Source: Deltaproteobacteria bacterium (lineage in GTDB: Bacteria > Desulfobacterota > Desulfomonilia > Desulfomonilales > Desulfomonilaceae). Taken from it: a stretch of DNA of 48,912 nucleotides. Numbering within the stretch: the stretch's first letter is position 1; every line of letters begins with the position of its first letter. Of this stretch, positions 1 through 42,721 are shown piece after piece. The translations under genes were made by a program, and so were the position numbers. Below the pieces are notes generated by a model. That model was not told the DNA's origin. It did not search any database and saw nothing but the letters and a program-made list of their open reading frames with translations. The stretch is from the NCBI GenBank assembly GCA_021777225.1, contig JAJYDQ010000028.1, positions 1 through 48,912 on the forward strand. Direction: 5' to 3'.

Positions 1-1403
1 AGACTGGCCGCTACCGTCCACGCAAATCCGGAGAACAGCAACCGAATCTCCCGAGAAATAGTCATCACAGGGATAAAGACAATTACCGTGGTAAGCGTCG
101 ACAGGAGAAGAGGGAAAGCCACATCTTCAGTTCCATCAACTACCCCTTTGGTCACTCCATCTCCCTCAGTCCAGCGGCGAGATATCGACTCAACCACGAC
201 AATTGCATTGTCAACAAGTATTCCCAGACCCAGGGTGAGCCCGCCCAGAGATAGAAGATCGAAGGTGACCCCCAAAAGTTTCATCAGTAAAATCGTAACA
301 AACAGAGAAAAAGGGATAGCCGATAAAACGACTACGGTAGACCTTAGATTACCGAGGAAGATAAACAGAACACATGCGGTAATCGTCGCAGTCATGGCAA
401 TCATTATATTCATCCGCCGGAGAACGGTTTCCAACTCGGCGGCCTGATTGGAAACGACTTGAATGATAGGAGCTGATTCATCTCCAGTTCGGATATCATC
501 AAGAAGAGTTCCCACTTCCTTCCACACTTGTCTCAAATCAGCGTCTGTAGAGCGATAAATTTCGACGGTGATCAACAACTGCCCATTGTATCGGGTGATC
601 TCGGCCGGTTCTTCAATTCCGAGCTTTACATGGGCCAACTGACCTACGGTCAGCAACGCGCCATTTTCGGAAACATGGACAGGCTGCAGTTCCACATCTT
701 CCGGAGTCTGGTGCTTCCCTGCTGTAAGGACCGACAGGTGTCTCCCCTCCCTGGTCAAAAAACCGGCAGGTAGGGTCTCGTGGCCGCCTTTAATAGCCAA
801 CATCACATCATGTATGGTCAAGGACAGGGCGTTGAGTCTCCCCGCATCGCAATCGACAGTTATCTCCTTCTTCGGAGCGCCGGAGACCCGGACTGTCGCA
901 ACTCCATCAATCCTGCCCAATTTCGGTTTCAAAGTGTGAAGGACCCATTCCCCGGCTTCTTCCTGGGAAACTTTGCCCATAACAGCCAGTATTGCGACAG
1001 GAGAATCTGAAGGGTCATATCTAGTTATGACAGGGAATCGCGCGTCCTTGGGCAATAGCGGAAACAATCGGCGTATACGGCTCCGAACTTCCAGGGCCTT
1101 TTCCGAGATGCTTTTGCCATAATGAAACTGCAAGGTGATTTCCGATTCGCCAGAGTGAGAGAGTGACTGGATCTTTCGTAAACCCGCAATGTCGGCTATA
1201 GCTTCCTCAATCGGTTTGGTAATTAAGGTCTCAATCTCTTCAGGGCTGCTGTCGCTAAGAATCGTGCTGATGGTCAGGACTGGGAACTGGGTATGAGGAT
1301 AAAGGTTTATAGGCATATAGAACAGGGCAAAAGCCCCGAGAATAACGAGACAAAGGCAAGCTGACAACGTGCCTAACGGTCTCTTGAGAAGAAATGATAT
1401 CAT
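1..1403 (-). CDS. RND efflux permease, second of a tandem pair (3' end outside window)
   Basis: An open frame runs from an ATG at 1403 to the left edge without a stop, giving about 467 N-terminal residues. It reads as an inner-membrane, proton-driven RND (AcrB/MdtB-C type) permease. It begins with a short cytoplasmic stretch (MISFLLKRPL) and a first membrane helix, then the porter domain with the familiar NLYPHTQFPVLTI and SPEEIE segments, then TM2-TM4. The TM4 relay segment reads GILVDNAIVVVE, so the second Asp of the AcrB Asp-Asp pair is Asn here. The start overlaps the stop of the upstream permease (ATGA), so the two are probably translated together and may form a mixed trimer as MdtB/MdtC do. 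Substrate cannot be told. Apparent plus-strand frames here are antisense shadows. Confidence 0.9.
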   Translation of the reverse strand, partial: MISFLLKRPLGTLSACLCLVILGAFALFYMPINLYPHTQFPVLTISTILSDSSPEEIETLITKPIEEAIADIAGLRKIQSLSHSGESEITLQFHYGKSISEKALEVRSRIRRLFPLLPKDARFPVITRYDPSDSPVAILAVMGKVSQEEAGEWVLHTLKPKLGRIDGVATVRVSGAPKKEITVDCDAGRLNALSLTIHDVMLAIKGGHETLPAGFLTREGRHLSVLTAGKHQTPEDVELQPVHVSENGALLTVGQLAHVKLGIEEPAEITRYNGQLLITVEIYRSTDADLRQVWKEVGTLLDDIRTGDESAPIIQVVSNQAAELETVLRRMNIMIAMTATITACVLFIFLGNLRSTVVVLSAIPFSLFVTILLMKLLGVTFDLLSLGGLTLGLGILVDNAIVVVESISRRWTEGDGVTKGVVDGTEDVAFPLLLSTLTTVIVFIPVMTISREIRLLFSGFAWTVAAS

Positions 1404-4400
1404 TCTGAGCCCAAGTCTCGACCAGGTTCAACATGTGCCACTGTCCCGAAGCGAGTTTTTGCGACAAGCTCATAAACTACCGGAAGCCCAAAAAGTTTAA
1501 AGACAGCGGAAGCCAGAAGCCCGGTTACAATTGTTATAGCCAGCGGCTTGTTCAACTGATCAGCGGCCCCTTGGGCCAGGCATATCGGAAGCGCCCCGAA
1601 AACGGTTGTCGCTGTGGTCATAAGAATAGGTCTGAGTCTGGTTGTCGATCCTTCGATTACTGCCTGCCGCAGACTCGTGCCCTGCCTTCTCATGTCATTA
1701 ATGGTTGAGACCATGAGGATTGCCATATTGACTACAATTCCAACCAGGACAACCGCCCCGATCAGGACCAGGACGTTCACAGGCGTCCCTCTCAGGTTAA
1801 GGGCCATGGCGGGGCCGACAATGCTTATGGGGACTGCTGTAAATACCACGAACGGCCACACAAGAGATTCAAACTGGATTACCAGTATGGTGTAGACTAA
1901 TATTGAGGCCATTATAACCGCAGTGGAAAGACTTCCAAGTGATTCCATCAACTCAAACCTGGCAATTCCCTGCCTGGCCGCATATCCAGGTGGAAGGTCA
2001 ATAACGCTTGCGGCTTTCAATGCGTTTTCTTCCCCTTTGCTGATCGCCATCCCAACAACATTGCCACGAAAAACAACGTTGCGCTGTCTGTCAGTTCTTA
2101 TTATTTCTCTAGGCCCCTTACCGGTGGTCACCATAGCGATCCGTCCCAGGAGACTGAAACTGTCCTGCCCAGATCGGAAAGTGAGATTGTCTAAGTCTTC
2201 TGCCGTAGTTTTATCCTTGGTTTTCAGTCGGACACGGATATCCTGTTCATGGTCCCCTTCTATGAATTTCCCGACGGTTTTTCCTTCTATAGCGGCTTGC
2301 ACAGCATGTGCAACATCATCAACCGATATGCCTGCGGCAGTAGCTTTGTATCGGTCCACAATCACACGTAAGTGCTCCGTCCAAACGTTTCCATCGCAGG
2401 AAATGTCCTTCAGCCATTCCTTGCCGGACAGGATCCTGGTCAACCAGTCGGCCGCTCGGCCCAACTCTTCCAGGTCATCCCCTGAGAGACGCAATAATTC
2501 GGGGCTGCCTTTGGTCCCGAGAATCCTGGTGAGAGGGCCCTGGTTTAGAACAAAATCTACCTTAATTCCCTCAAGTGATTCGCTCTGGCGGCGCAATTTT
2601 TGTATAATCAGGTTAGTTGTCTCATAAACAGAGGATCCCGAACCGAGCGCTACCGCAATTCTTGCCTCGTTAGATTTTCCGATGTCCTGGGAAGGCTCAA
2701 GGCCGGTCCTATTGCGCTCAACGCCAGCCTCAGTTACGTAACACATTACCTGTGGAAATTCGTGGATCCATGACTCTATTTTGTCAACCGCATTTTCCAC
2801 TCTATGAAGGCTGCTTTCCGCTGGTAAGGTGATATTTATATTGAAGCGTCCCACGTCAACGTTAGGGATCAATTCGAACCCGGCCCGGTAGATACCAACA
2901 GCGGCGCCTACGAACAGAAAGCAACATGTTCCAAGGACGTGCCATGGATGGTCGAGGGCAAGGGCTACATTGCGTCGATATTTTTCCTGAATGGACAACA
3001 TCTGTCTGTCATCTTGAGATGACATTTTCCTGGAAGCCTGTGCCCAGACGATGATTGCAGGCAGCAACAGAACCGATACGAGCAGGGAGATCAATAGAGA
3101 TCCTCCCATGGTAAAAGCAAAGTCGCGAAAAAGCTTCTGCGCCATACCGGTCATGAACAAAATCGGTATTAGCACCGCCAGTGAAGTTAATGTGCCGGAA
3201 ACAACACTTCCTCCCACCTCGCTGAGCGCAGTAGTTGTGGCTTCAAGTATGTCCCTGGATTGAAGCCGCTTCCTGTGGATTGCCTCCAATACGACGATAG
3301 AGCAGTCCACCAGCATCCCAACACCCAGAGCCAACCCCCCAATGGACATGATGTTCAGACTGACTCCAAAAAAAGACATTAAAGCAAAAGATGAAACTAC
3401 AGAAACAGGGATAGAAAGCATAATGAAGGCTGTACCGCCTAGATTACGAAGAGAAATCAGCAGCACACCGAACGCCAGCGCGCTTCCCCACAACATGTCC
3501 GTTTTCAAGTCGTTAAGTGCCTTTTCAATAAATGGAGCTTCGTTGTCGACCACCTCAAGCGTCGCTCCAAGCGGGACACGCCGTCGAAGGTCATCCAACC
3601 TGGCCATGACGCGTTGGGAAACTTCCACAGTATTTTCCGACGGTTCTTTTATGATGCCCATGAGAACCGCCGGTTGCCCGTTAACTCGATTAATGCTAGT
3701 ACGATCGGCATGAGAGGCCACTACTTGGGCGACATCGCCCACTCGAATAGTTCCGCCTTCTGTTCCCTTTCCCAATGATACGGAAGATATCTCATCGAGG
3801 GTCTTGAAACGGCCGACAGTACGAACCGGGAATTCCATTGATCCCTTGATCAGGCTGCCCCCGGGGAAATTGATGTTTGCGGCTTCAAGTCGGTCCGTAA
3901 CCAGTTTTAGGTCCAGTGTTTGAGCGACAAGCCGTCCCTGATCAACCAGGACCTGAATTTCAGCAGTCAATCCGCCGGAAATCCTGACGTTGGCTACCCC
4001 ACTAATAGTTTCCAACTCTGGCTTGAGCGTGTTTTTGGACAGCGTATACAGAGAGCCCGGATCTTTGTCTCCAGTTAGAGCCAGTGTAACAATAGGAGTG
4101 TCGGTGGGGTCATATTGAACAACTATTGGTAGTTTTGCTTCTCTCGGAAATTCATCGGCAGTCAGATCCAGCTTCTCACGGACTTCCGCTGCTGCGATGC
4201 TCATGTTAGAGCCCCAGTTAAACCTCAATATAACCGAAGACATACCTTCAGAAGAAACGGAGTTTACTGAACGAAGACCGGTCACTGTGCCTACAGCCTC
4301 TTCAACCGGTCGCGTCAATAAGGACTCTACCTCTTCCGCTGACGCGTTTCCAAAGGAAGTGATAATGACCAGACGCGGGTATTTAAGACTGGGAAGTAAT

Positions 4401-4495
4401 TCAACAGGCAGTGATAACGAAGAAATAATGCCTGCAACGATAAGTAACGAGAAGGTCGCGACTATTGCCAACGGGTGTCGCAAGATCTGGTTCAT
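1400..4495 (-). CDS. RND efflux permease, first of a tandem pair
   Basis: This 1031-residue protein has the usual length of HAE-type RND permeases. The order is TM1 (about 8-28), a periplasmic porter/docking domain, TM2-TM7, a second porter domain and TM8-TM12. The TM4 motif reads GMLVDCSIVVLE (D397, C398), so one acidic relay residue is replaced by Cys. In TM10 the position of AcrB Lys940 falls in GIVVNMAIL and is not Lys, as in many SwrC/NolG-like members of the family. The protein would sit in the inner membrane and export small molecules or lipophilic compounds through the adaptor encoded just upstream and a TolC channel. ATGA overlaps on both sides (4492-4495 and 1400-1403) place it in a three-gene operon. 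Substrate is unknown. Confidence 0.95.
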   Translation of the reverse strand: MNQILRHPLAIVATFSLLIVAGIISSLSLPVELLPSLKYPRLVIITSFGNASAEEVESLLTRPVEEAVGTVTGLRSVNSVSSEGMSSVILRFNWGSNMSIAAAEVREKLDLTADEFPREAKLPIVVQYDPTDTPIVTLALTGDKDPGSLYTLSKNTLKPELETISGVANVRISGGLTAEIQVLVDQGRLVAQTLDLKLVTDRLEAANINFPGGSLIKGSMEFPVRTVGRFKTLDEISSVSLGKGTEGGTIRVGDVAQVVASHADRTSINRVNGQPAVLMGIIKEPSENTVEVSQRVMARLDDLRRRVPLGATLEVVDNEAPFIEKALNDLKTDMLWGSALAFGVLLISLRNLGGTAFIMLSIPVSVVSSFALMSFFGVSLNIMSIGGLALGVGMLVDCSIVVLEAIHRKRLQSRDILEATTTALSEVGGSVVSGTLTSLAVLIPILFMTGMAQKLFRDFAFTMGGSLLISLLVSVLLLPAIIVWAQASRKMSSQDDRQMLSIQEKYRRNVALALDHPWHVLGTCCFLFVGAAVGIYRAGFELIPNVDVGRFNINITLPAESSLHRVENAVDKIESWIHEFPQVMCYVTEAGVERNRTGLEPSQDIGKSNEARIAVALGSGSSVYETTNLIIQKLRRQSESLEGIKVDFVLNQGPLTRILGTKGSPELLRLSGDDLEELGRAADWLTRILSGKEWLKDISCDGNVWTEHLRVIVDRYKATAAGISVDDVAHAVQAAIEGKTVGKFIEGDHEQDIRVRLKTKDKTTAEDLDNLTFRSGQDSFSLLGRIAMVTTGKGPREIIRTDRQRNVVFRGNVVGMAISKGEENALKAASVIDLPPGYAARQGIARFELMESLGSLSTAVIMASILVYTILVIQFESLVWPFVVFTAVPISIVGPAMALNLRGTPVNVLVLIGAVVLVGIVVNMAILMVSTINDMRRQGTSLRQAVIEGSTTRLRPILMTTATTVFGALPICLAQGAADQLNKPLAITIVTGLLASAVFKLFGLPVVYELVAKTRFGTVAHVEPGRDLGSE

Positions 4496-20984: not shown

Positions 20985-23900
20985 ATGTGGATAGTCCGTC
21001 TCGCTCTGCGCCGTCCCTACACTGTCGCAGTCATGTCAATGCTGATACTGGTCATGGGGGCCCTCTCCCTCAGCCGAATGATGGTGGACATTTTCCCCGC
21101 CATTGACATACCGGTTGTCGTGGTGGTCTGGAATTACCCAGGGCTTTCCCCGGAAGACATCGAACGCAGGATCGTCCTCATCAGCGAACGGGCTTATTCC
21201 ACAACCGTCAACGGTATCGAGCGAATCGAGTCCCAGTCAATACCTAGCATAGGTATCCTGAAACTGTATTTTTATCCGGGGACGGAAATAGGAGCTGCAA
21301 TAGCCCAGATCTCGGCGGTATCCAGCACTCTTTTAAGAATAGCCCCACCTGGATTGCAGCCACCAAATATAATTCAATTCAACGCGTCTAACGTCCCGGT
21401 GGCGCAGCTGACCGTATCGAGCCAGACTCTTTCTGAGGAAAAGGTTTATGACTATGGGCTGAATTTCATTAGGGTCCGCTTGTTTACAATCCCTGGACTG
21501 TCAACACCCGCTCCGTTTGGCGGGAAATCGCGTGAAATCAATGTCGATATCGATCCAAACGCCATGGGGGCAAGAGGTTTGTCTCCGTCAGACATCGTAA
21601 ACGCGCTCCTGCAATCAAACGTTATCCTGCCTGCCGGAACAGCGAAAATAGGTAAATTCGAATACAATGTCCTTACTAATTCAAGCCCAAAAAAATTGGA
21701 AGAGTTCAACCGCTTCCCTGTAAAGGTTGTCGGGAACGCTGTCGTTTATTTGGGAGATGTGGCCAAAATTTCGGACAGTTACGCAGAGCAGGTCAACATT
21801 GTCCGAGTGGATGGTAGAAAGGCTACATACCTTGCGATCCTCAAACATGCCGACGCTTCGACACTTGCCGTAGTGAATGCTACAAGGGCAGTGCTTCCGC
21901 TGATTAAGTCAGTCGCTCCCAAAGGGCTGGAACTAAAAATTGATTTCGACCAGTCCGTCTTTGTCCGAACAGCTATTGAGGGAGTAGTTCGAGAGGTTAT
22001 TCTGGCCTCGGTCCTCGTCTCACTGATGATCCTGGTTTTTCTTGGAAGCATCCGCAGTATGATAATCGTGGTGATATCAATTCCGCTTGCCATACTGACA
22101 TCCATAGTAGGCCTTTTTCTCACCGGGCACAGTATCAACATCATGACGCTCGGCGGACTCGCCCTGGCGGTTGGGATGCTGGTTGACGACGCGACAGTGG
22201 AGGTGGAAAATATCCACCGTAACCGTCACATGGGGAAGCCATTGACGGTGGCGATACTCGATGGAGCGCGACAGGTGGCGGTCCCTGCGATTGTGGCCAC
22301 ACTGGCTGTTTGTGTGGTGTTTTTCCCGGTGGTATTGCTCTATGGGCCTGCAAAGTTCCTTTTTACACCGCTCGCATTGGCGGTTGTAATAGCCATGCTT
22401 GCTTCCTATGTGCTTTCCAGGACTCTGGTGCCAACTCTTGCCCGTATGTTGATGACCGGTGAGCGCGACCTGTTGGCAGAACATCACGAGGATGCGGTTG
22501 GCGGTAGCGGTCCTTCGTCTGTCATCCAGAAATTAAACAATTTGAGGGACCGTTCGTTCGACAAGCTCCAATCGGCTTATGGCAACGCTCTGGAAACTTT
22601 CATGCGGCACAGGTTTTTCGTCCTTGTGATAGCCGGACTTGTGATCATTTTAAGCCTTGGCCTAGTCCCAATCATAGGGACTGATTTCTTTCCATCCGTG
22701 GACGCAGGGCTTATGAAGCTTCATTTTAGAGCCCCACACGGGACTCGAATTGAGGAGACAGACCGCCTTGTATCCAGAGTGGAAAAACGTATCCGTGAAG
22801 TAATCCCCGCAAAGGAATTGAGCACGATCAATGTCATGATCGGTGTGCCTACATCATTTAACCTTGGATTTGTCCAGACAGATAACGTTGGCAGCATGGA
22901 CGCTGATATTCTGATTGCCCTTAAAGAGTCCCACAAACCTACTATCGATTACATTAAAAAGATCAGAGAAGTCCTGTCTCAAGATTTTCCGGACTCGTCT
23001 TTCTATTTCCAGCCTGCGGACATTGTCACTCAGGTGCTTAATTTTGGAGTTCCTTCCCCGATCGACGTTCAGATAGAAGGGCTGGATCTTGAAAAATCTT
23101 ACGAATACGCCAAGAAGATACGCGAGGACATGGCTAAAATCACGGGAGTGGCTGACGTTCACATAAAGCAGGTCCTGGACTATCCGTCTTTACAGGTAGA
23201 TGTTGACCGCACGTTGGCCGCCAAACTCGGGATGACTGAACAGAATGTGGCGAGCAGCATGCTTATTTCGCTATCATCGAGCATTCTTGTCTCCCCCTCT
23301 TTCTATCTTAATCCTTCGAACAACGTAAATTACTTCGTCGCTGTCCGCATCCCTCCATCTGTAATCGATTCAATTGAAAGTCTTAATTCAATACCCATGA
23401 CACCTCCTCTTTCATCGGCAGATTTTGTAACCCCGGGGGGCGTCCCTGCGCCGACCACGATTCCAACGATACCGGCCCAGACGCTGGCCAATGTGGCTAC
23501 GATAACTCACAGGGTCAGTTACGAAAATATTGATCACTATACAGTTCAACGGGTTATCAATGTTGACGCAAATGTGGAAGGAAGGGACCTGGGGTCTGTC
23601 GCCAGTGAAATCCAACAGAAAATTTCAGAATTGGGGAAGCTTCCACCGGGAACTCGCATAGCGCTTCGAGGACAGTTCGAAGTTATGGAGCATTCGTTTA
23701 AAAGTCTTGGAATGGGATTGATTCTTGCCATATTGTTTGTATATCTCCTGATGGTTGTCCTTTTTCAATCATGGCTGGATCCTTTTATCATAATTATGGC
23801 CATACCAGGGGCCCTGGTCGGGATATTGTGGATGCTCGCATTAACGGGAACAACAATTAACGTGGAGTCATTGATGGGTTCTATTATGGCGGTAGGTGTG

Positions 23901-24260
23901 GCCACAGCCAATTCGATCCTGTTGGTCAGTTTCGCTAACGATTTCCGGATGGAGAGCGGGGGGTCCCCGACACATGCGGCATTGGAGGCGGGGAAGACAC
24001 GGTTGCGGCCTGTTTTGATGACCGCGCTGGCAATGATTTTGGGTATGCTTCCAATGGCTTTGGCTTTGGGCGAAGCCGGTGAACAGAACGCTCCATTGGG
24101 AAGGGCGGTAATCGGAGGCCTCATTGTGGCGACTGTGGCGACCCTCTTTGTAGTGCCGGTTATCTACTCTCTGCTGCGCAAGGACCTTCCTACCAAAGAT
24201 ATGCTCGAGAAACGGTTCCTCGCTGAAGAACGAGGGGAAATATGGTCAGGTAAAATTTAA
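20985..24260 (+). CDS. RND efflux permease of a permease-first operon
   Basis: The protein has 1091 residues, some 50 longer than AcrB. TM1 is at about 12-30, and the first porter domain includes FPAIDIPVVVVVWNYPG. TM4 carries the intact acidic pair in AVGMLVDDATVEVENIH (D401, D402). In TM10 the AcrB Lys position falls in GVATANSILLV and is Ala or Thr, so the proton path differs from AcrB. The extra length lies partly in the second porter domain, in a Pro/Thr-rich loop (PGGVPAPTTIPTIPAQT). It is an inner-membrane exporter of unknown substrate. Its TAA overlaps the adaptor ATG by one base (TAATG), which indicates coupled translation. Confidence 0.95.
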   Translation: MWIVRLALRRPYTVAVMSMLILVMGALSLSRMMVDIFPAIDIPVVVVVWNYPGLSPEDIERRIVLISERAYSTTVNGIERIESQSIPSIGILKLYFYPGTEIGAAIAQISAVSSTLLRIAPPGLQPPNIIQFNASNVPVAQLTVSSQTLSEEKVYDYGLNFIRVRLFTIPGLSTPAPFGGKSREINVDIDPNAMGARGLSPSDIVNALLQSNVILPAGTAKIGKFEYNVLTNSSPKKLEEFNRFPVKVVGNAVVYLGDVAKISDSYAEQVNIVRVDGRKATYLAILKHADASTLAVVNATRAVLPLIKSVAPKGLELKIDFDQSVFVRTAIEGVVREVILASVLVSLMILVFLGSIRSMIIVVISIPLAILTSIVGLFLTGHSINIMTLGGLALAVGMLVDDATVEVENIHRNRHMGKPLTVAILDGARQVAVPAIVATLAVCVVFFPVVLLYGPAKFLFTPLALAVVIAMLASYVLSRTLVPTLARMLMTGERDLLAEHHEDAVGGSGPSSVIQKLNNLRDRSFDKLQSAYGNALETFMRHRFFVLVIAGLVIILSLGLVPIIGTDFFPSVDAGLMKLHFRAPHGTRIEETDRLVSRVEKRIREVIPAKELSTINVMIGVPTSFNLGFVQTDNVGSMDADILIALKESHKPTIDYIKKIREVLSQDFPDSSFYFQPADIVTQVLNFGVPSPIDVQIEGLDLEKSYEYAKKIREDMAKITGVADVHIKQVLDYPSLQVDVDRTLAAKLGMTEQNVASSMLISLSSSILVSPSFYLNPSNNVNYFVAVRIPPSVIDSIESLNSIPMTPPLSSADFVTPGGVPAPTTIPTIPAQTLANVATITHRVSYENIDHYTVQRVINVDANVEGRDLGSVASEIQQKISELGKLPPGTRIALRGQFEVMEHSFKSLGMGLILAILFVYLLMVVLFQSWLDPFIIIMAIPGALVGILWMLALTGTTINVESLMGSIMAVGVATANSILLVSFANDFRMESGGSPTHAALEAGKTRLRPVLMTALAMILGMLPMALALGEAGEQNAPLGRAVIGGLIVATVATLFVVPVIYSLLRKDLPTKDMLEKRFLAEERGEIWSGKI

Positions 24261-38901: not shown

Positions 38902-38952
38902 AATGTTTCATACCTGTTTGCATCGCGTCCAATTTTATTGAAACTTTTTTCT

Positions 38953-38958
38953 TGTCAA
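38953..38958 (-). promoter_or_regulatory. Candidate -35 of the divergent acyltransferase-like gene
   Basis: TTGACA on the minus strand overlaps the lexA -35 on the other strand and directly abuts the palindrome. AT-rich DNA follows (AATAAAATT), but no clear -10 at 17 nt. It would serve the gene starting at 38901. Confidence 0.4.
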
Positions 38959-38975
38959 GAGACCATATGGTCTCT
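38958..38975. promoter_or_regulatory. LexA operator (SOS box)
   Basis: AGAGACCATATGGTCTCT is a perfect 18-bp palindrome that fills the spacer of the lexA promoter. Position, symmetry and the adjacent repressor gene identify it as the autoregulatory site. It differs from the E. coli (CTGT-N8-ACAG) and Gram-positive (GAAC-N4-GTTC) boxes. No second copy was noticed in the window. Confidence 0.75.
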
Positions 38976-38986
38976 ATAATACAGAC

Positions 38987-39607
38987 ATGACCACCACTGA
39001 ACGACAAAAACAAATCCTGGATTTCATAAGCATGTTCCAAAAACAAGAAGGGTTCCCTCCATCTTTAAGAGAAATATGCAAAGGTATAGGTCTTGTTTCT
39101 CACGGGAGTCTTATAAAGCATATTCGCTCACTGGAATCTCAAGGCCTGATTAAAGGGATGCCCGGGAAAAAAAGGGCCTGGAAATTAGTTGATTCACAAT
39201 CAATAGAGATACCTTCCATACCCGTTCTAGGGAGAATAGCCGCAGGGAATCCCATATTGGCTCAAGAGGACAAAGAAGAACAGTTACCAATTAATCCCTC
39301 ATTCTTTGGCTCATCTGAAGCTTTCGCACTCAGAGTCAAGGGCGATTCAATGATTGAAGCCCACATTCAGGACGGAGATCTCGCTATAATTCGACCTCAG
39401 CAGGAAGCGGAAAACGGCTCCATCGTTGCTGTTATTGTTGAGGGGATTGAACCTGAAGCCACTTTGAAAATTCTTGGAATCACCAAAAACACAATAGAAT
39501 TACGACCTGCAAATGAATTTTATGAATCATTAATTTTTAGAGGAAACGATCGTTCAAAGATAAAAGTCTTGGGAAAGCTTGTCGGGATTATACGGGCCAA
39601 ACCCTAA
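38987..39607 (+). CDS. lexA: LexA-type SOS repressor
   Basis: The protein has 206 residues. The N-terminal winged helix (about 1-66; TERQKQILDFISMFQKQEGF, SLREICKGIGL) binds DNA. The C-terminal S24 protease domain has the Ala-Gly self-cleavage site in GRIAAGNP (A86-G87), the catalytic Ser in VKGDSMIEAHI (S121) and the Lys in EATLKIL (K161). RecA-stimulated self-cleavage would derepress the palindrome upstream. The recognition helix differs from that of E. coli LexA, matching the unusual operator. It precedes a DnaE2-like polymerase, the arrangement of lexA2-mutasome loci, though imuA and imuB are not in the window. Confidence 0.95.
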   Translation: MTTTERQKQILDFISMFQKQEGFPPSLREICKGIGLVSHGSLIKHIRSLESQGLIKGMPGKKRAWKLVDSQSIEIPSIPVLGRIAAGNPILAQEDKEEQLPINPSFFGSSEAFALRVKGDSMIEAHIQDGDLAIIRPQQEAENGSIVAVIVEGIEPEATLKILGITKNTIELRPANEFYESLIFRGNDRSKIKVLGKLVGIIRAKP

Positions 39608-39681: not shown

Positions 39682-42267
39682 ATGAATATGGATACCTTTG
39701 TTCATCTTGAAGTCCTTAGCGCCTTCTCATTTCTTTGGGGGACCTTCACCCCGGAAGATCTGGTCGAGGCCGTCGTATCAATGGGACAGAAGTCCGTAGC
39801 CCTTACCGATTATGGGCTGCACGGGGCTATTAGGTTCTATAAGGCGGCTGTTAGGAGCGGAATTCAACCAATCATAGGGACGAAACATCGAATCTGGGAT
39901 GGGTCCCAGGTAACTTTTTTGGCGACAAGTTTTGAATCTTACAGGAACCTTTGCCGTCTTGTGTCAATTACTTCGAATTCCGGGGTCATTACCAAACAGG
40001 ACTTGAGCCATTATTCGAAGGGACTGGTGACAATAGCCGGTGGCCGAGATTCCCTGATTTGCGCCGCCCTTAAAAAAAGGAGATTTGACGAAGCGGAATT
40101 AGGTTTGCTGGAATTGAAATCGTCATTAAATAACCCTGAATGGCTTTTTATAACCATTCAAAATGATGGCGGGTCCGATCAACTATTAGAAAACAAGATA
40201 GACTTTGCCTTATCCATGAATATTCAGATCGTAGCCACAAACGAGGTCACATTCCTGACGCCTCGGGACTATATCCTCCACCGCATATTGGTCAACATTC
40301 AGTGTAAACATCATCACAGGACAGTCACGCCTCTACCGAATGACAGTTTCTTTTTAACCTCCATCGAAGAAATGGAAAATCGAATTAACTATCATCAAGC
40401 GATTGAAAACACTCAATATGTGGCTTCACTTTGCAAGAGATTTTCCCTCCCTGTCGGAAAACTTCATCCTCCGTCTATTCAAGCCCCTAAAAAGGCGTCG
40501 GAAAAACTTACCAAACTATGTTTCAAGGAATTGGCCACGCTCAATAGCCCTGTTGGCGTTAACTATTTCCGCCGCCTTGATCTCGAATTGGAAGCCGTAA
40601 ATAAAACCCGACTGGCTGATTTCTTTCTTTTAGTCAGAAACGTAGTTGACTTTGCCCGCTCGGGGAATATCCGCCACAGCGTCCGTGGTTCAGCCGCAGG
40701 AAGCTTGATAGTTTATTTAATCCTTGGCGGTGTTGATCCAGTAGCCAACGATCTACTTTTCGAACGCTTCATTAATGATGGCCGTGGAGATATGCCGGAC
40801 ATAGACATTGATTTTGACTCTGAACGCAGGGATGAGGTGATCAACTATGTTCTGGGATTATTTCCACGGCAGACGGCAATGGTCTGCACAATCCACAAGT
40901 TCAAATGCCGGAGCGCTGTGCGTTTGGCGGCAAGAGCTATGGGATATCCTCTGAACGAGATAAACCGTCTTGCTTCATGCCTTCCCTGGTCACTTAGAGG
41001 ACGTGATCTGAAGCTGTCCCTGCAAGAATTACCGGAATTAAGAAGCGCTCCAATCCAGAAAGAAACACAGCTTGTGGATTTGGCATCAAGGCTTACAGGT
41101 CTTCCTTTCCAGACATCAGTTCATTTAGGGGGTATAATAATTGCTCCTGACGACATTAATACCTGGTCGCCAGTGGGTAGATCACCTAAAGGATTACCTG
41201 TAAGCCAACTGGATAAAGACGATGTTGAAGCTTTAGGTCTTCTCAAGCTGGACATATTGGGACTACGTATGCACACAGCTATCACAAAGGCCCTTGAGAT
41301 ATTGGATGAAAAAGGAATCAACCTGAATCTTGACCATATTCCCCTGGATGACAAAAGGACTTATTCACTACTTTGCAGCACCCATAGTGTCGGGGTTTTC
41401 CAGCTTGAATCTCCCGGACAACGCAGCCTTTTGGGATGTCTCCAGCCAACCGAGTTTAAAGATCTGGTAGCGGAAGTTTCTCTTTTCAGGCCCGGTCCGG
41501 TTGAAGGCGATATGGTTAACGTTTACATTCGGAGGCGAAACCAAGAAGAGTCTGTCCCTTTTTTACACGGGACTATTTCAGAAGTATTGAAAGAGACCTA
41601 CGGTGTAATTCTTTTCCAGGAACAGGTTTTACGCATCGCCCATTTTTTTGCCGGTTTGTCTTACGCTGAAGCTGACGCATTCCGTAGAGCCATGACAAAA
41701 GACCGGAAATCCAGAAAGATGGAACTTCTGAAACAGTGTTTCATTGAAGGCGCAATAGATCATGGGCATAGCAAATCTCTCGCGGAGAAAGTTTTCACTC
41801 AGGTTTCAGCTTTCGCGTCGTACGGGTTTTGTAAGGCCCACGCCGCTTCATTCGCTCACATTACCTATCAAAGCGCTTACCTGAAAGCTCATTATCCTCA
41901 GGCTTTTTATCTTGGGCTTCTAAACGCCGGACAAGTGGGCTCATATCCCCATTCAGTAGTAATAAACGAGGCGAGGAGATGGGGCTTACGAATATATCCA
42001 CCCCATGTTAACTCAAGCGATGTTGAATACACGGCTGAGGGGACAGGGATAAGGGTCCCGCTGGACGTAATAAACGGGGTTGGACCTGCCCTGGCCCGCC
42101 GCATTCGAGCCAATCGTAAAAGATTTGGGCCATTCCAGAGTCGCGAAGAATTTCTGGCCCGCATTCCGGCTCCTAAGCGCATAGAGGATACCCTGTCTAT
42201 CGCGGGGGCTTTTGAAGGCCTCGAATATTACGAATGGGGATTGATCCAGGAAGCCTATAATGCTTAA
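39682..42267 (+). CDS. dnaE2: DnaE2/ImuC-like error-prone DNA polymerase III alpha, lacking the OB fold
   Basis: The protein has 861 residues against about 1050 for typical DnaE2. The order is an N-terminal PHP domain with degraded metal ligands (HLEVLSAFSF, LTDYGLHGA), palm/thumb with RHSVRGSAAGS and the catalytic Asps in MPDIDIDF (D373, D375), fingers (SVGVFQLES, EVSLFRPGP, YGVILFQEQ), the YGFCKAHA segment, and a helix-hairpin-helix (GVGPALARRIR). It stops before the C-terminal OB fold, which is encoded by the next, overlapping gene. DnaE2 enzymes do mutagenic translesion synthesis under SOS control. It lies 75 nt after lexA; no Shine-Dalgarno sequence is evident at the start. Confidence 0.9.
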   Translation: MNMDTFVHLEVLSAFSFLWGTFTPEDLVEAVVSMGQKSVALTDYGLHGAIRFYKAAVRSGIQPIIGTKHRIWDGSQVTFLATSFESYRNLCRLVSITSNSGVITKQDLSHYSKGLVTIAGGRDSLICAALKKRRFDEAELGLLELKSSLNNPEWLFITIQNDGGSDQLLENKIDFALSMNIQIVATNEVTFLTPRDYILHRILVNIQCKHHHRTVTPLPNDSFFLTSIEEMENRINYHQAIENTQYVASLCKRFSLPVGKLHPPSIQAPKKASEKLTKLCFKELATLNSPVGVNYFRRLDLELEAVNKTRLADFFLLVRNVVDFARSGNIRHSVRGSAAGSLIVYLILGGVDPVANDLLFERFINDGRGDMPDIDIDFDSERRDEVINYVLGLFPRQTAMVCTIHKFKCRSAVRLAARAMGYPLNEINRLASCLPWSLRGRDLKLSLQELPELRSAPIQKETQLVDLASRLTGLPFQTSVHLGGIIIAPDDINTWSPVGRSPKGLPVSQLDKDDVEALGLLKLDILGLRMHTAITKALEILDEKGINLNLDHIPLDDKRTYSLLCSTHSVGVFQLESPGQRSLLGCLQPTEFKDLVAEVSLFRPGPVEGDMVNVYIRRRNQEESVPFLHGTISEVLKETYGVILFQEQVLRIAHFFAGLSYAEADAFRRAMTKDRKSRKMELLKQCFIEGAIDHGHSKSLAEKVFTQVSAFASYGFCKAHAASFAHITYQSAYLKAHYPQAFYLGLLNAGQVGSYPHSVVINEARRWGLRIYPPHVNSSDVEYTAEGTGIRVPLDVINGVGPALARRIRANRKRFGPFQSREEFLARIPAPKRIEDTLSIAGAFEGLEYYEWGLIQEAYNA

Positions 42268-42721
42268 CAGGGCCAAATATATAAATGAGGCCGCCAGGAC
42301 TCGGGCTTATAATGAAACCGTCTCCATGAAAGTCTTCTGTCACGCCCATCCTTTGTCTGTGATGAGACCTTTGCTAATTCAGCAAAATATTATCAAGGCG
42401 ACTGACTTGCGACGTTTACCATCGGGCAGTCTTGTAAGGGTTATCGGTTTGCTCGTGATCGTGCATACTCCGCCCACAAAATCGGGCAAAAGGGTTATGT
42501 TCCTGACGATGGAGGATGAAACCGGGCTGATTGATGTGGTGGTTTTCCCAAAAGCCCAGAAGGGGTTTGCCCGAACTATACTTACCAGTGAGGTTCTCGC
42601 TGTTGAGGGTAAATTGCAAAAACAGGGAGTTAAAGGGATATCAATATCAATCGTCATGGAGAAGGCGCTGACAGCCTGGAGCGGTCGATTGGATAAATTC
42701 CTAAAAATGGAGGTTCATTAG
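42260..42721 (+). CDS. OB-fold protein, split-off C-terminus of the DnaE2-like polymerase
   Basis: The protein has 153 residues. The segment MKVFCHAHPLSVMRPLL corresponds to the stretch that in one-piece DnaE2 proteins joins the helix-hairpin-helix to the OB fold. SLVRVIGLLVIVHTPPTKSGKRV and FLTMEDETGLIDVVVFPKA are the OB-fold (tRNA_anti type) strands. The ATG overlaps the polymerase stop by 8 nt (ATGCTTAA), in the +1 frame, and AGGA lies 8 nt upstream. A working ribosome site argues for a genuine two-subunit arrangement rather than a sequencing slip. It probably binds single-stranded DNA or the clamp/ImuB side of the mutasome (inference). Confidence 0.85.
   Translation: MLNRAKYINEAARTRAYNETVSMKVFCHAHPLSVMRPLLIQQNIIKATDLRRLPSGSLVRVIGLLVIVHTPPTKSGKRVMFLTMEDETGLIDVVVFPKAQKGFARTILTSEVLAVEGKLQKQGVKGISISIVMEKALTAWSGRLDKFLKMEVH

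Follow-up and report, generated by a model that had tools for sequence, protein, structure and literature searches.

A putative damage-inducible DnaE2-type polymerase encoded as separate catalytic and OB-fold proteins in Desulfobacterota

DnaE2 (ImuC) is a well-known type of DNA polymerase. In a 48,912-nt stretch of DNA from a member of the Desulfomonilaceae (Deltaproteobacteria bacterium, GenBank assembly GCA_021777225.1, contig JAJYDQ010000028.1, positions 1 to 48,912; hereafter the window), a gene for a short polymerase of this type, ending just past its helix-hairpin-helix (HhH), overlaps a second gene encoding an OB fold, and both lie behind a lexA gene. We consider it likely that this cassette encodes a damage-inducible translesion polymerase of the DnaE2 type, which was divided once, long ago, into a catalytic and an OB subunit under the control of the cassette LexA.

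Architecture of the two proteins

The polymerase gene (39682..42267, + strand) encodes 861 residues, in which Pfam recognizes PHP, DNA_pol3_alpha, finger and HHH_6 domains, the last ending at residue 848; its identity draws on the open reading frame, Pfam, NCBIfam, alignment, trees and a predicted structure. Its stop codon lies in an 8-nt overlap, ATGCTTAA (42260..42267, + strand), that also begins a frame of 153 residues (42260..42721, + strand) comprising a remnant of the DnaE2 linker, an HP motif and the OB fold, as judged from the reading frame, Pfam, NCBIfam and a model; the OB-fold loop is conserved as HTPPT(K/R)SGKR. A Shine-Dalgarno-like AGGA (42248..42251, + strand) is situated 8 nt ahead of the OB ATG and is AGGAGG-like in several relatives. 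Coordinates and Pfam thus confirm a sequence-only reading of this region, which had the 861-residue frame end after the HhH and placed the OB fold in the next frame, behind an 8-nt overlap and AGGA.

When compared with PRK05672, the NCBIfam model of error-prone polymerases, the 861-residue protein covered positions 3-872 and the 153-residue protein positions 915-1018. Alignment to one-piece DnaE2, a check the sequence-only reading had proposed, likewise matched the two proteins to consecutive parts, with the clamp-motif segment between HhH and OB missing. In the alpha subunit of DNA polymerase III (Pol III), the clamp motif is located between HhH and OB, and our alignment agrees: most one-piece DnaE2 have a longer HhH-OB stretch with clamp-motif-like strings (e.g. 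QGDLF, QGSLFLL), whereas in the split pairs the chain is interrupted at this segment and the motif is absent. A motif search of the window's pair returned only QRSLL, in the polymerase core, where it is part of the conserved fold. The proposal that linker and OB fold both reside in the second frame was therefore right for the OB fold, whereas the linker segment with the clamp motif is missing from both proteins. Clamp motifs of the DnaE groups are covered by Timinskas et al. 2014 (PMC3919608).

An AlphaFold model of the short polymerase (predicted local distance difference test, pLDDT, 87) stops directly past the HhH, in a tail whose final 13 residues are disordered; the OB protein was modeled with a pLDDT of 89. 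The top Foldseek matches of the former were Pol III alpha structures, including those of Escherichia coli (2hnh, 4jom), and that of the latter was the OB region of Mycobacterium tuberculosis DnaE1; a sequence profile also places the OB protein with Pol III alpha OB regions. The palm aspartates D373, D375 and D524 are present (PDIDIDF and KLDILGL motifs), and across 18/18 aligned polymerases the catalytic triad is invariant and the split point identical. The PHP metal site is degenerate, with HLHLH...LLDG and TDHG of DnaE1 replaced by HLEVL...FLWG and TDY-, a condition that PMC3919608 describes as typical of most DnaE2. Nothing follows the OB fold in either protein (Pfam, model), and the C-terminal tau-binding domain is accordingly absent. 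The OB domain, in DnaE2 part of the same chain, is here a separate gene; because PMC3919608 counts some OB-less sequences among DnaE2, a same-chain OB is best regarded as usual rather than strictly defining. By analogy with DnaE2, the split polymerase would carry out error-prone translesion synthesis.

Conservation and origin of the division

A search of related genomes for the same split revealed that it recurs across families, often with the identical 8-nt overlap. The cassette of lexA, short dnaE (848-922 aa) and OB gene (130-206 aa) was found in at least seven families (f1, f79, f31, f65, f38, f26 and f22), and in nearly all of these cassettes the OB start overlaps or closely trails the dnaE stop; an eighth family, f37, has the same genes, rearranged. 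Stand-alone OB frames were detected in 17/395 sampled Desulfobacterota genomes (E <= 1e-12) bearing eight family codes, and mostly adjoin a short dnaE and lexA. Loci of the window's family with lexA, short dnaE and OB gene are labelled Desulfomonile sp. or tiedjei in public records. In a wider scan of 84,980 species, split cassettes occurred, among the best 80 loci, only in records of Desulfobacterota/Thermodesulfobacteriota type; among the same 80, loci of other phyla held the OB fold within a one-piece polymerase, often with an ImuB-like gene upstream. The annotated plasmid matches, among those listed, were error-prone or DnaE polymerases and not OB genes. A phage match (MT838003), an unverified 5.8-kb record lacking annotation, was not used.

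At the junction, overlaps of the ATGCYTRA-, ATGTCTRA- or ATGTATGA-type are shared within the window's family (G000, G012, G009, G007, G013, G014, G008), so that the geometry of the overlap is kept while its sequence varies among relatives. Across loci, overlaps of 1, 4, 8, 17, 20, 26 and 38 nt were seen, that of 8 nt frequently, along with gaps (G011, L143, L158, L164); in G011 an insertion of ~280 nt separates dnaE from the OB gene. Pairwise ratios of nonsynonymous to synonymous substitution rates (dN/dS) were 0.04-0.23 for the OB genes, detached copies and well-diverged pairs included, and 0.07-0.19 for DnaE; both frames are under purifying selection. Because the split recurs in independently assembled relatives and dN/dS is low in both frames, it is not the product of chance or of an indel error, in keeping with the earlier suggestion of an evolved split rather than a random frameshift. 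A sequencing or assembly indel near 42260, breaking an ordinary one-piece dnaE2, would be the simplest artefact, since such errors happen in metagenome assemblies and the frames meet a few residues apart; it is refuted by the same split in many independent assemblies of several families, by the variable overlap sequence with its constant geometry, and by the location of the halves at different loci in several genomes, and we give it practically no credence.

In two genomes of the window's genus, G004 and G006, only a decayed remnant of the 5' end of the OB gene follows the short dnaE: the ATG is kept in G004 and the frame broken soon afterwards, whereas G006 has ACG as start codon and runs into a stop after the CHAH motif. 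True decay of the adjacent OB is what would be expected if the frameshift were a recent loss of function and the OB frame a pseudogene; the low dN/dS in well-diverged pairs, the phylum-wide retention of the OB frame and the LexA promoters retained by detached copies render this very improbable. Intact OB genes are present elsewhere in both genomes (one in G006; two full-length and several truncated in G004), often adjoining a gene for an HU-like protein. With a clade to themselves (100/98), the detached OBs are read as paralogues that outlived the adjacent copy rather than a merely relocated gene. They have new C-terminal tails, which in G004 end in TQLALGF, a string that resembles a clamp-binding peptide and is offered as a lead only; one, t2, is preceded by a 449-bp duplicate (92% identity) of the region upstream of G004 lexA. 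Such multi-copy OB genes outside the cassette, with LexA promoter retained, would let the OB part be dosed or exchanged on its own, as had been envisaged. Independently, in f37 (G076, G414), lexA and the OB gene stay together and the short dnaE lies at a different locus. Since the two genes lie apart in rearranged genomes, OB and polymerase are evidently made as separate proteins.

Several side observations concern these rearranged genomes. The lexA-OB units of G076 and G414 (L120, L121), which contain no polymerase, encode an OB protein of 108 aa without the N-terminal linker part. Detached OB genes at L064, L065, L066, L067, L079 and L080 are near a 90-aa HU-like gene (MTKAEFVDKLAEKG...), and in G004 the unit of detached OB and HU-like gene has multiplied and partly decayed. 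G004 and G006 also possess a further short DnaE, 787-813 aa long and descended from DnaE1, whose end lies ahead of the HhH (L067:4257-6698, L068:6055-8418, L072:1801-4164); these truncated, replicative-type loci have similar gene neighbourhoods and are odd.

Programmed frameshifting at the overlap, by which a fused polymerase would be made alongside the short form, has a precedent in dnaX, where two products arise in this manner. The OB frame stands in the same relation to dnaE (remainder 2) at most loci, which speaks for such a mechanism; however, overlap length is variable, no conserved slippery sequence was noticed, G011, L143, L158 and L164 have gaps, and fusion is impossible in G004, G006 and f37, leaving frameshifting improbable.

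Phylogenies of the polymerase core placed every split polymerase in one clade (100/99 in the careful tree) on the DnaE2 side, with the one-piece LexA-associated DnaE2 of Ca. Aerophobetes as sister (98/97) and DnaE1 apart (100/100). This grouping bears out the label DnaE2-like given from sequence inspection, and, with all split polymerases in a single clade, the division appears to have happened once and long ago; a single event with long descent thereafter, perhaps with some transfer, would be the simplest reading.

LexA control and the absence of ImuB

The cassette is preceded by a sigma-70-type promoter, TTGTCA-17 nt-TATAAT (38952..38980, + strand), the spacer of which is filled by a 16-bp palindromic LexA operator, GAGACCATATGGTCTC (38959..38974, no strand assigned); both promoter architecture and operator are kept in relatives. 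Next follows a complete lexA encoding 206 residues (38987..39607, + strand; Pfam; NCBIfam TIGR00498, 177 bits). Its start codon is 6 nt past the -10 box TATAAT (38975-38989) and relatives show similar spacing, which makes a leaderless lexA-dnaE-OB transcript probable. The operator is the sole site with <=1 mismatch in the whole 4.04-Mb genome, and the cassette LexA is that genome's sole protein above the Pfam LexA cut-off. The pattern TTGNNNNGAGANCATNTGNTCTCTATA, allowing <=2 mismatches, returned 13 sites in 14 genomes of the family, all of which lie at cassette lexA genes (eight) or at detached OB genes (five). A conserved operator overlapping the promoter would place the cassette in the LexA (SOS) regulon, as the link to SOS drawn earlier had it, and predicts induction by DNA damage. 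In some relatives a DinB-type gene has a second lexA as its immediate neighbour (L253:1770-3644), a separate LexA-DinB unit.

No Y-family polymerase (PF00817) was detected in the window genome with a model that matched 11/14 control genomes. Among 25 genomes with the split system, none gave an ImuB-like match and 19 gave no Y-family match at all; the other six had one strong DinB-like match each, none of them in the cassette. By comparison, all seven tested genomes of the same phylum with one-piece DnaE2 had a weaker, ImuB-like match, which in five of these lay no more than ~5 kb from dnaE2, on its contig. No ImuA was noticed in the cassettes, for which no ImuA model was run, and DUF6504 had no match in the window genome. 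Stand-alone ImuB-C (PF20114) had no match above the cut-off in split genomes, a result that is little evidence because this model also scores weakly against members of the phylum with an ImuB-like protein. The earlier idea that the OB protein contacts a mutasome was not upheld: no ImuB was found, which leaves no mutasome of the classical kind for it to touch. Apart from the short polymerase, the window genome has one C-family polymerase, an ordinary DnaE1 whose open frame of 1158 aa is on a different contig. We conclude that, as predicted from these genomes, the system is a LexA-controlled, two-subunit, ImuB-free DnaE2.

Proposed mechanism and relation to known polymerases

We envisage that, upon DNA damage, LexA would be cleaved or otherwise inactivated and the operon transcribed; ribosomes finishing dnaE would begin the OB gene at the overlapping ATG, aided by AGGA, and the OB protein would rejoin the HhH end of the polymerase, or the adjacent template strand, non-covalently. 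There it would provide the single-strand contact given by the OB domain in one-piece DnaE, and the pair would act as a non-covalent DnaE2 with neither ImuB nor the clamp motif that the linker of one-piece DnaE2 carries. Sequence evidence supports regulation and separate synthesis; translational coupling, complex formation and error-prone synthesis would be expected from the known behaviour of DnaE2, and the short polymerase and OB protein presumably bind each other.

The OB protein might instead be an independent single-strand-binding or regulatory SOS protein, with the short polymerase acting alone. The multiplied detached OBs of G004, with their own clade and new tails, fit this proposal, as do the E. 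coli alpha structures among the best polymerase matches, which were solved without the OB part (2hnh, 4jom). However, the OB gene is mostly in an overlapping operon with the polymerase behind one LexA promoter, and genomes in which the adjacent OB has decayed keep an OB elsewhere; we regard an independent role as unlikely. Speculative and rather unlikely, too, is a minimal SOS mutasome that consists of two C-family parts with no Y-family member, in which the OB protein is an exchangeable loading factor acting in trans and the TQLALGF paralogues of G004 carry the clamp peptide. If so, TQLALGF would correspond to the clamp-binding peptide in the linker of one-piece DnaE2, and a choice among OB subunits would let the cell adjust its access to the clamp.

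Several points weigh against a polymerase divided once into two cooperating subunits. Interaction, activity and induction are predictions; most of the sequences are from metagenome assemblies; the frequent constancy of the OB frame relative to dnaE leaves room for some frameshift-fused product; G002 has detached OB sequences in addition to its adjacent OB; and the detached OBs, having their own clade, could have gained another role. In addition, one Desulfobacterales contig (L167:1013-3961) encodes polymerase and OB in a single 982-aa frame. In this frame the HhH is replaced by a repeat-like CGLRIADCG sequence and the polymerase nests inside the split clade, and it was set aside as a counter-example on these grounds; the locus appears to be degenerate or misassembled.

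The divided polymerase resembles DnaE2 (ImuC) in its branch of the C-family tree, LexA-type operator, degenerate PHP site and lack of a tau-binding domain, and its OB protein aligns to the DnaE2 OB segment. It differs from DnaE2 of the ImuA-ImuB mutasome in consisting of two polypeptides, in having lexA as first gene and in that no ImuB was found, and from one-piece DnaE2 in lacking the clamp-motif segment between HhH and OB. The sister lineage in Ca. Aerophobetes (L160) similarly has lexA upstream and a short linker without an obvious clamp motif, although its DnaE2 is a single polypeptide of 1007 aa.

Cyanobacteria also encode a C-family alpha subunit in two genes, the split dnaE (split DnaE inteins, PMC2664965). 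In that case each half bears part of an intein, and trans-splicing joins them into a single protein, unlike the window's pair. A split intein was considered here and rejected: the ~13 residues past the HhH and the ~30 ahead of the conserved OB part are too few, and neither Pfam nor NCBIfam gave an intein match.

A survey of OB-less DnaE2 and DnaE3 (Timinskas et al. 2014, PMC3919608) reports that several DnaE2 sequences lack the OB domain, and the sections consulted describe no separate OB gene; some of these OB-less DnaE2 may be split polymerases like the window's. Mutasome variants without ImuA, with stand-alone ImuB-C, have been described (Timinskas and Venclovas 2019, PMC6511836); in these, too, parts of the mutasome have been dispersed into separate genes, often neighbours of lexA, but all include a Y-family member, which the window genome lacks. 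Searches of the open full-text literature, which omits most subscription papers, turned up no account of a C-family polymerase whose OB fold has its own gene.

What the OB domain does in bacterial C-family polymerases is difficult to study by itself, since the domain usually belongs to the polymerase chain; a natural split would permit its deletion, mixing or titration without cutting a protein. Evolution seems to have separated the OB, kept both halves under one damage switch, and then moved or multiplied the OB in some genomes. The split genomes further suggest that a DnaE2-type polymerase can persist without ImuB, and often without any Y-family protein, which would contradict the model in which DnaE2 depends on ImuB.

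Elsewhere in the window, translations read by eye suggest two long efflux transporter genes of the resistance-nodulation-division type (1400-4495 and 20985-24260), each adjoining a membrane-fusion-like partner gene.
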